The notes under the pieces are model-generated. The model worked only from the letters and a program-made list of their open reading frames with translations. It did not search any database and had not been told where the DNA came from. From an uncultured Oleispira sp. (GTDB lineage: Bacteria > Pseudomonadota > Gammaproteobacteria > Pseudomonadales > Oceanobacteraceae): a stretch of 64,000 nt of DNA. The translations under genes were made by a program, and so were the position numbers. The DNA lies in NCBI GenBank assembly GCA_913061415.1, contig CAJXUD010000003.1, positions 186,001-250,000 on the forward strand. The letters run 5' to 3'. Below are positions 3,942-6,987 of this stretch, piece by piece (the first letter of the stretch is position 1; each line of letters begins with the position of its first letter).

Positions 3942-3957
3942 AGTGAGGACAGCCACT
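3942..3957 (-). repeat. REP-like element copy 1 (upstream of RAYT)
   Basis: AGTGAGGACAGCCACT; the AGTG and CACT ends can pair across an 8-nt loop. Read on the minus strand it carries GTGGCTGTCCT, the core shared with six other copies in the window. Confidence 0.7.
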
Positions 3958-4000
3958 GTAATTCGACCTAGTTTTTTGCTTAACCTAACCCGATCTCCCT

Positions 4001-4020
4001 AGCGAGGACAGCCACCTTTA
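4001..4020 (-). repeat. REP-like element copy 2 (upstream of RAYT)
   Basis: AGCGAGGACAGCCACC, the same orientation as copy 1; on the minus strand it reads GGTGGCTGTCCTCGCT. It lies about 80 nt before the transposase start. Confidence 0.7.
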
Positions 4021-4101
4021 AGAATTAATACTGATGGCGAAGTAATGGCCTTTGTCTATCGTATAAATATACAGCCCAGTCTCAATTCAGAGCTTCATAT
4101 T

Positions 4102-5100
4102 ATGACTAAAGCTAGAAAGTGCCTTATTTCTGTTGATGCTACGCCCTACTATCATTGTGTGAGTCGCTGCGTGCGCCGTGCTTTTTTATGCGGCACCGAT
4201 GATCATTCAGGAAAAAGCTACGAACATCGACGAGGTTGGCTAGAGGATAAGCTCCTTAAATTACCTGAGGTTTTCGCAATCGATGTCGCCGCCTATGCCA
4301 TTATGAACAATCATTATCACACGGTTTTGCACATCAATAGTTCAAAAGCCAAGTCCTGGTGTGATGAAGAAGTTGTCGAGCGCTGGCATCAATTATTTAA
4401 TGGAAATGTGTTATCTCAGCGTTTTATTCGAGGAGATAATTTAACAAAGGTCGAGAGAAACCGGCTTCAAATTTCAATCAATGAATGGCGTTCGCGCTTG
4501 CAAAGTATCAGTTGGTTTATGCGTATTTTAAACGAAGCCATTGCTCGCGAAGCCAATAGTGAAGATGATTGCACGGGTAGGTTTTGGGAAGGTCGGTTTA
4601 AGTCGCAAGCCTTGCTAGATGAGCCAGCACTCACCGCTTGCATGGTGTATGTTGATCTTAATCCCGTACGCTCAAAAATGGCTAAGACCGCTGAAACATC
4701 AGAACATACATCGATTAAACGTCGCTACGACAGCGCTAAAACAACCAAACAGCCTAATCGATTTGATCAGCAAGATAAGTTACTTTACCCTTTTTCTGGC
4801 AACCCTAAGCAAGATCAACCAGAGGGGATCCAACTTAAATTAACCGATTATATGACGCTAGTAGAGCAAACTGGCCAGATAATTCGGGGAGATAAACGGG
4901 GTTCCATTCAGAAATCAACCAGTTCAATTCTTGTCCGGTTAAAAATCGATCATGATCAATGGTTGGAAATGACCAGTCATTTTGAAGAGTGTTTTACGAC
5001 GTTTGCCGGAGCTGAGCATCGAGTAAAACTGGCGTGTGATATTCTTAATTATCGCCGACCGCCGAATATTTCTACCTGCAAACTTTTATTAAACGTTTAA
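4102..5100 (+). CDS. REP-associated IS200-like transposase (RAYT, Y1/HUH superfamily)
   Basis: A single-strand-specific DNA nuclease of the Y1 transposase class. Counting from an upstream ATG at 4045, the HUH metal motif is HYH at residues 90-92 (NNHYHTVLH) and the nucleophile is Tyr202 in VYVDLNPV, matching the position of Tyr115 in E. coli TnpA-REP four residues before Asn-Pro-Val. GRFWEGRFKS just before it is typical of the family. The start at 4102 (MTKARKC) is preferred because that is where family similarity begins; 4045 also lies in frame. A C-terminal extension of about 130 residues is longer than in E. coli TnpA-REP. Catalytic residues are intact, and the gene is flanked by inverted pairs of REP-like elements, its expected targets. 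Confidence 0.9.
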   Translation: MTKARKCLISVDATPYYHCVSRCVRRAFLCGTDDHSGKSYEHRRGWLEDKLLKLPEVFAIDVAAYAIMNNHYHTVLHINSSKAKSWCDEEVVERWHQLFNGNVLSQRFIRGDNLTKVERNRLQISINEWRSRLQSISWFMRILNEAIAREANSEDDCTGRFWEGRFKSQALLDEPALTACMVYVDLNPVRSKMAKTAETSEHTSIKRRYDSAKTTKQPNRFDQQDKLLYPFSGNPKQDQPEGIQLKLTDYMTLVEQTGQIIRGDKRGSIQKSTSSILVRLKIDHDQWLEMTSHFEECFTTFAGAEHRVKLACDILNYRRPPNISTCKLLLNV

Positions 5101-5266
5101 TAATAAAAAACTAAAGTTCATAACTAGCAACCGAGTATACGCACGCCTGGAATTCCGTTAAAAATCGTTTATTAATCTATTATTTCACTGATGGTTAGCA
5201 TTCTTAATACTTCAGAGGCTCCCTTCTATTTTCAGTCTGCTTATCTATAAAAAATCAGTTTAATTT

Positions 5267-5285
5267 GGGGTGGCTGTCCTTATAA
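5267..5285 (+). repeat. REP-like element copy 3 (downstream of RAYT)
   Basis: GGGGTGGCTGTCCTTATAA: the same core as copies 1 and 2 but in the opposite orientation, making an inverted arrangement around the transposase. Confidence 0.7.
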
Positions 5286-5288
5286 TTT

Positions 5289-5305
5289 GTGGTGGCTGTC
5301 CTGAA
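5289..5305 (+). repeat. REP-like element copy 4 (downstream of RAYT)
   Basis: GTGGTGGCTGTCCTGAA, a direct neighbour of copy 3, 22 nt further on. It runs straight into an 11-bp tandem repeat. Confidence 0.7.
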
Positions 5306-5344
5306 AGAGCCCTGAAAGAGCCCTGAAAGAGCCCTGCAAAGCGC
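5301..5344. repeat. 11-bp tandem repeat, 3 perfect units plus one degenerate
   Basis: CTGAAAGAGCC at 5301, 5312 and 5323, then CTGCAAAGCGC at 5334. It begins on the last bases of REP copy 4 and lies 50 nt before the trmO start. Confidence 0.85.
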
Positions 5345-6926: not shown

Positions 6927-6987
6927 GCGATGGCTGTCCTAGAAAAGGAAGAGTGGGTGTCCTAGGCTGGGAGCGATGGCTGTCCTA
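6927..6987 (+). repeat. Cluster of three REP-like elements
   Basis: GCGATGGCTGTCCTA at 6927-6941 and 6973-6987, with a diverged GTGGGTGTCCTA between them at 6953-6964. TAG and CTA (or CCTAGG) ends can pair around each core. The core matches the RAYT-flanking copies 1.6 kb away. It lies between the divergent tpm and hydroxylase genes. Confidence 0.65.

Follow-up and report, generated by a model that had tools for sequence, protein, structure and literature searches.

A putative transposable element with a subclass 2.3-type Y1 transposase gene set between outward-facing copies of a linear motif, and nested duplications at the ends of its family

The DNA analysed here (the window, a stretch of 64 kb) carries an intact open reading frame for an HUH/Y1 transposase, accompanied on each side by two copies of a short motif (Table 1). 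The first methionine of the 332-aa form of the protein is invariant in 47 relatives, and consequently the listed start at 4045 lies 19 codons too early; relatives are 320-338 aa long. The sequence-only reading of this DNA had proposed an intact RAYT with an intact HYH and Tyr202; the open reading frame and the HYH stand, while the tyrosine becomes Tyr183 when counted from the start at 4102. Specifically, the protein shows NNHYH at residues 69-73 (H71-Y72-H73), FWE at 161-163 (W162-E163) and Y183-V-D-L-N-P188, with a spacing of 110 residues from the HuH to the tyrosine (183-73) and 149 residues C-terminal to Tyr183.

Table 1. Coordinates of the transposase gene, the motif copies and the repeats in the window
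Feature	Position	Strand	Remarks
Outer left-end motif copy	3947..3957	-	AGTGGCTGTCC, reads outward; from the window search; 10-nt core the same in the G001 orthologue
Inner left-end motif copy	4006..4016	-	GGTGGCTGTCC, 87 bp 5' of the start codon; conserved in G001
HUH/Y1 transposase, subclass 2.3 TnpA type, 332 aa	4102..5100	+	Intact ORF; fold match to RAYT 4er8
Inner right-end motif copy	5269..5279	+	GGTGGCTGTCC, 170 bp 3' of the stop codon; family position about 170-190 bp
Outer right-end motif copy	5291..5301	+	From the window search
Nested end duplication	5300..5332	+	CCTGAAAGAGC x3 (5300-5310, 5311-5321, 5322-5332); match 26, period 11
Gene-less solo array, three direct copies	6929..6985	+	6929 GATGGCTGTCC, 6954 TGGGTGTCC, 6975 GATGGCTGTCC

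Sequence-based searches placed this protein poorly: Pfam at E 0.001 missed it, Y1_Tnp giving a weak match, NCBIfam NF047646 matched with 35 bits against a cut-off of 80, and PDB sequence searches returned no matches. By comparison with PDB structures, its AlphaFold2 model (pLDDT 89) fits the E. coli RAYT 4er8 (Z 11.4, rmsd 3.0, 157 residues), and it also fits the transposases of IS608 and ISDra2. In the model the C-terminal domain consists of helices, which are conserved among relatives; predicted alone it found no fold match in the PDB, a result that says nothing about novelty. Such a distal C-terminal domain, together with a median length of 325 aa, has been described for TnpA_Y1 subclass 2.3 (PMC6006769); the C-terminal extension, earlier held to be unusual, is real and at the same time a published feature of that subclass. 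The length (about 325-332 aa), the NHYH, WE and YVDLNP signatures, the spacing of 110 residues, the occurrence of several diverged copies per genome and the gammaproteobacterial hosts are likewise shared with subclass 2.3, and the gene-bearing ends have no REP-like hairpins. Judged by the signatures that PMC6006769 gives in its own table and text, the window protein matches a subclass 2.3 TnpA. Five TnpA gene copies, plus fragments, occur in the window's genome (G000); relatives were found neither in the phages nor in the E. coli genomes searched. One relative (L139, NZ_CP076856) is carried by the conjugative plasmid pNi1-3 of Shewanella decolorationis, which is a possible route of transfer for that gene.

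When GGTGGCTGTCC was searched in the window with at most one mismatch, six matches appeared against 0.56 expected and a maximum of 3 in 100 dinucleotide shuffles. Four of them bracket the TnpA gene, two per side and reading outward, as had been claimed from the letters, and the other two fall within the solo array at 6929-6985. The strings themselves are GGACAGCCAC, twice upstream of the open reading frame, and GTGGCTGTCC, twice downstream; from the GG core given in the earlier reading the upstream outer copy differs by one mismatch. The inner left copy lies at a distance from the gene that is typical for the family, and TGGCTGTCC is the form that the motif takes in the window's lineage. The solo array follows a methyltransferase gene and is 1.6 kb away from the transposase; a congener (G001) has one motif copy at the matching place.

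Pattern searches over the whole genome found exact GTGGCTGTCC nine times: four at the window locus, three on contig C15, at a paralogue 65% identical to the window TnpA, one on C7 within an array that has no gene, and a lone copy on C19. A further paralogue, on C17, is flanked by GGACAGTCA-type motifs, which gave the first hint that the motif varies with the gene. On C7, four direct TTAAGGTGGGTGTCC-like copies are found at L022:863-960, and no intact transposase gene was found nearby.

The association was then followed in the wider family. A scan of GTDB species genomes, one per species, confirmed 407 relatives, and 80 loci were retained from these; polymorphism within species was followed on plasmids only. 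In most of these roughly 80 relatives the TnpA gene lies between outward-facing motif copies, while some have no recognisable motif on one side or both. A de novo count of all k-mers in the 500-bp flanks, independent of the window motif, returned TGGGTGTC as the top 8-mer, facing outward in 88 flanks and inward in 1. Similarly, the 600-bp flanks of 85 loci, most of them relatives, hold 271 outward-facing and 22 inward-facing copies of TGNNTGTC. The family consensus is TTARRG-TGGGTGTC-Y (GACACCCA when read inward), with TTARRG ahead of the 8-mer and Y, then nnkTTA, behind it; the columns within the 8-mer are inflated by the choice of sites. The inner copy mostly maps 63-90 bp 5' of the start codon (131-135 bp in Vibrionaceae) and 158-211 bp 3' of the stop codon, with usual values of about 70-80 bp and 170-190 bp, respectively. 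The earlier view that the flanking inverted copies belong to the transposase is borne out.

The motif also co-varies with the protein. The variant is identical at both ends in 34 of 51 elements (permuted ends: mean 22.3, maximum 30), and the variants cluster on the protein tree, where 15 changes suffice and shuffling them gives 29.1 on average. Clade-linked forms include TGGCTGTC; TGTSTGTC is found chiefly in the Vibrionaceae clade and GGGGTGTC in one Colwelliaceae/Alteromonadaceae clade, and TGGGTGGC and TGGATGGC occupy one clade each. As gene and ends are inherited together, this clustering alone is no proof of recognition. The extended motif TWARRGTGGNTGTCY exceeds its reversed control only where an intact gene is present: 11 such genomes hold 41 occurrences against 8 for the control, and nine genomes without one hold 1 against 5; since seven of the 11 gene-bearing genomes were picked via known loci, this enrichment is supportive only. 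In two congeners, decayed transposase copies with in-frame stops were observed (G005:C71:14776-15693 and G003:C20:47688-47885) and the extended motif has no matches, which suggests a joint decay of ends and gene.

A fixed distance to the start codon, as well as the existence of solo arrays without a gene, would also suit a role in regulation, with the motifs serving as operators or processing sites for the transposase gene or adjacent genes and not as transposition ends. We regard this explanation as very improbable, because the motif recurs, inverted, at a fixed distance past the stop codon, is found in gene-less pairs and lies at the edge of an insertion polymorphism.

The copies had been called REP-like, with a core other than the GTAG head of REPs, and the transposase a RAYT. 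The protein is indeed RAYT-like and the core indeed has no GTAG head, but gene and repeats do not form a canonical RAYT/REP pair. REPs are GTAG-footed hairpins present in large numbers, whereas the ends of this family are linear and few per genome. When 65-nt stretches of 129 gene-bearing ends were folded with DNA parameters, the mean z values were -0.6 and -0.3, that is, no conserved hairpin emerged beyond the shuffles, and hairpin ends were rejected; a GTAG/GTGG foot adjoining a hairpin was not found at TnpA ends. Gene-less pairs do form a hairpin, solely because two inverted ends meet. Dispersal was assessed in ten genomes with RTGGSTGTCY, which occurs 43 times in G000 against 42 for the reversed control and is not enriched over that control in most of the ten; the main exception is a Colwellia genome (G006), with 79 against 38. 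Outside the gene loci and a few arrays the copies are near chance in these genomes, and a REP-scale population was accordingly rejected. The earlier idea that the unit might be a source for REP spread is not supported in this genome, on the same count and on the synteny of the window copy with that of G001.

These observations bear directly on the simplest reading of the locus, namely an ordinary REPtron, in which a canonical RAYT disperses its flanking REP palindromes genome-wide. The Y1 fold closest to the E. coli RAYT, the weak NF047646 match and the inverted copies on both sides of the gene would all suit it. More broadly, the HUH/Y1 fold, the Y---NP signature, inverted paired repeats and small gene-less pairs are shared with RAYT/REP and REPIN systems (E. 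coli REPtron 4er8; Pseudomonas REPINs). The REPtron reading is strongly disfavoured and, in our judgement, highly unlikely, given ends without a hairpin or a GTAG foot, ten genomes without a REP-scale population, and a subclass for which neither automatic nor manual searches gave REP-like sequences. The latter result was obtained for both subclasses 2.1 and 2.3 (Quentin 2018, PMC6006769), and the automatic search demanded a GT[AG]G tetranucleotide beside a hairpin, a requirement that a linear motif would escape. Nor does the element resemble IS200/IS605 (IS608, ISDra2) beyond the HUH/Y1 catalytic core: those ends are one-strand hairpins with guide sequences and without terminal inverted repeats, and their signature is Y---Q, where the window protein has YVDLNP and its ends no hairpin.

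Evidence of movement comes from relatives. In two Pseudoalteromonas strains (L137/L138) an element lies between the icd terminator and ilvI, while the relative CF6-2 (L204) has the same region without it; the comparison is between related species, not strains, and leaves about 10 nt unassigned on each side, so that the exact ends and a target rule are not fixed by it. This occupied/empty pair indicates, at the level of sequence, that the family is mobile. HL-AS1 and CuT4-3 were considered as empty sites for L136 and rejected, as their gene order differs. In Colwellia, short gene-less inverted pairs are found, e.g., AGCAGACACCCACTCAAAT-N9-ATTTGAGTGGGTGTCTGC, which supports, in relatives, the paired inverted copies that the sequence-only reading proposed to test for; among adjacent motifs no more than 150 bp apart, with positions taken from two genomes, eight pairs face outward and none inward. 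Empty sites for two such pairs gave no simple target rule, and one pair adjoins a copy of another repeat. Another (L143:380-560, on G006:C27) adjoins a truncated copy of a gene resembling an integrase, which runs on uninterrupted in several other places. Elsewhere in the same genome, a family transposase unit (L145, G006:C16:36000-38800) has on either side a sequence of about 90 bp; the two resemble each other and, by eye, integron attC sites, and the unit may for that reason travel as a gene cassette.

At the window locus itself the picture is more static. No clean empty site was found in relatives, where the downstream gene is kept and other genes stand upstream. The locus is syntenic with that of the congener G001, at the same position and in the same gene order, with 84% protein identity; it is on this ground a resident locus, not a recent source, and the window copy is an old, vertically inherited one whose current mobility is putative. 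The same synteny and identity might be taken to indicate a domesticated host gene that has lost mobility and whose ends are relics. We find this rather unlikely: between the two orthologues the upstream cores TGGCTGTCCT are retained twice whereas the spacer has diverged, five gene copies plus fragments are present in G000, and relatives show recent end changes and gene-less pairs.

The ends carry a second, more specific signal. Of 67 left ends, 28 have a direct repeat of at least 9 nt immediately outward of the inner motif, as do 19 of 62 right ends, where shuffled sequences would give 1.6 and 1.1; immediately inward of it the numbers are 1 left and 2 right. With 10 matches confined to the core set aside, 43 ends were left. 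The duplication has its outer limit 13-16 nt from the T of TGTC in 33 of them and 11-19 nt from it in 41; the mode is 14 nt. The inner edge is ragged, from 29 nt before to 5 nt after, apart from one outlier. The window right end follows this pattern, reading TGTCCTGAAAGAGC and then two further copies of CCTGAAAGAGC, the first copy ending 14 nt from the T of TGTC (5297), i.e., at the family mode. Filler of 1-6 nt separates the duplicated stretches in 9 of 53 events, and several duplication units overlap by 1-4 nt at the junction.

Closely related copies differ in precisely these regions. Two orthologous gene-less Colwellia elements, L142 and L153, are 97% identical over the shared stretch and read TGTCTGCTATATTC-A-GCTATATTC and TGTCTGCTATATTC-TATATTC, respectively, at this place; in a second pair, L145 has three copies and L159 one. 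On two Pseudoalteromonas shioyasakiensis megaplasmids the left array at the same site holds six motifs in one and two in the other. The duplications in L142 and L153 look like recent, independent events sharing one outer edge, and the constancy of that edge suggests the place where the enzyme cuts.

Ordinary replication slippage at short repeats, acting without the enzyme and uninformative about cutting, is the main rival explanation for these duplications, with the inverted motifs still taken as real element ends. The junction overlaps of 1-4 nt and the AT-rich Colwellia flanks speak for it; yet the same sequences carry almost no duplications just inside the motif, the outer edge keeps its distance from the motif whereas the inner edge wanders over about 35 nt, and some subclass 2.1 elements show a similar edge beside another motif, TCTGACCCC. 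On balance we consider slippage of this kind unlikely, if a serious contender. Slippage starting at an enzyme-made nick would leave a footprint that looks alike.

The subclass 2.1 elements just mentioned lead to the closest known architecture, the TIRtron, in which a Y1 gene (TIRYT) lies between non-REP inverted repeats that also form dimers and clusters (Di Nocera 2013, PMC3733652). The window element shares this layout, its terminal inverted repeats likewise being unrelated to REPs. The two differ in protein subclass, as TIRtrons are mostly subclass 2.1 and none of the 26 TIRYTs is placed in subclass 2.3 (PMC6006769), and in their repeats, for which the consensus in TIRtrons is GGGGWSAS. The window repeat does not fit GGGGWSAS; this consensus applies to a subset of TIRYTs only, hence the mismatch is not decisive. 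A subclass 2.1 copy in G000, with TCTGACCCC as its repeat, does fit, and it too shows nested duplications with a constant edge. Nested end duplications are not described for TIRtrons in the accessible passages of PMC3733652; among subclass 2.1 ends in relatives, four of 24 carry them, with a constant edge. Subclass 2.1-like Y1 genes with TCTGACCCCTTGAT repeats (the TIRYT consensus) were also noted at L016/L232 (G000:C14:37236-37940), L114 and L120, with nested duplications sharing one outer edge at their outer ends (...CTCTGACCCCTTGATG, GACCCCTTGATG and ACCACCCCTTGATG twice).

In conclusion, we consider it probable that the 1.36-kb unit is an HUH/Y1 terminal-inverted-repeat element, or the settled descendant of one, whose TnpA recognises the linear motif and cuts one strand's length of about 10 nt beyond it. 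This proposal draws on the motif, on how it is placed and oriented and how it varies along the protein tree, on the hairpin-less ends, the outer edge of the duplications, the gene-less pairs and one occupied/empty site; from these we infer that TnpA binds and cuts at the motif and that the duplications are its products. In this element, terminal inverted repeats made of the short linear motif, and not of REP hairpins, would enclose the transposase gene. A subclass 2.3 TnpA would bind the motif at each end in single-stranded DNA and nick that DNA about 10 nt farther out. The subsequent steps are modelled on the HUH chemistry measured for RAYTs, which comprises a 5'-phosphotyrosine, a free 3'-OH and strand transfer (PMC8266576). 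The nick would give a 5'-phosphotyrosine and a 3'-OH end; rejoining of the 3'-OH at a new site would result in transposition, while rejoining close by on the sister strand would add part of the end again. Repeated rounds would build nested tandem copies with one outer edge and differing inner edges and, over time, whole extra motifs, and gene-less inverted pairs could be substrates of the same TnpA. The filler seen in 9 of the 53 events is not expected from simple strand joining.

More generally, and tentatively, linear-TIR Y1 transposases of subclass 2.3, and perhaps 2.1, might repeatedly nick and re-extend their own ends at a set distance from a linear motif, yielding recorded cut points, arrays and gene-less elements by a process distinct from REP hairpin processing. 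The TIRtron architecture is known; what appears to be new, from comparative sequence data, is that a subclass regarded as having no cognate DNA, and for which the published descriptions hold no REP-like sequence, includes a TIR-type Y1 element with a linear motif at its termini, with nested duplications there and with derivatives that have no gene. A literature search for the motif strings returned unrelated papers only, and a possible cleavage footprint at TIR-type Y1 ends was not found described in the accessible portions of the TIRtron and subclass literature.

Subclass 2.3 has previously stood as a multi-copy, apparently spreading group of TnpA_Y1 proteins for which no DNA partner was known. 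Given a conserved partner motif and a predicted cut point, oligonucleotides can now be used directly to test its substrate. How REP-like repeats arise is a question that the literature on them raises. If the enzyme itself makes the nested duplications, genome sequences already store many of its cleavage events, and they would reveal a simple path by which the end of a transposon gives rise to short repeats.
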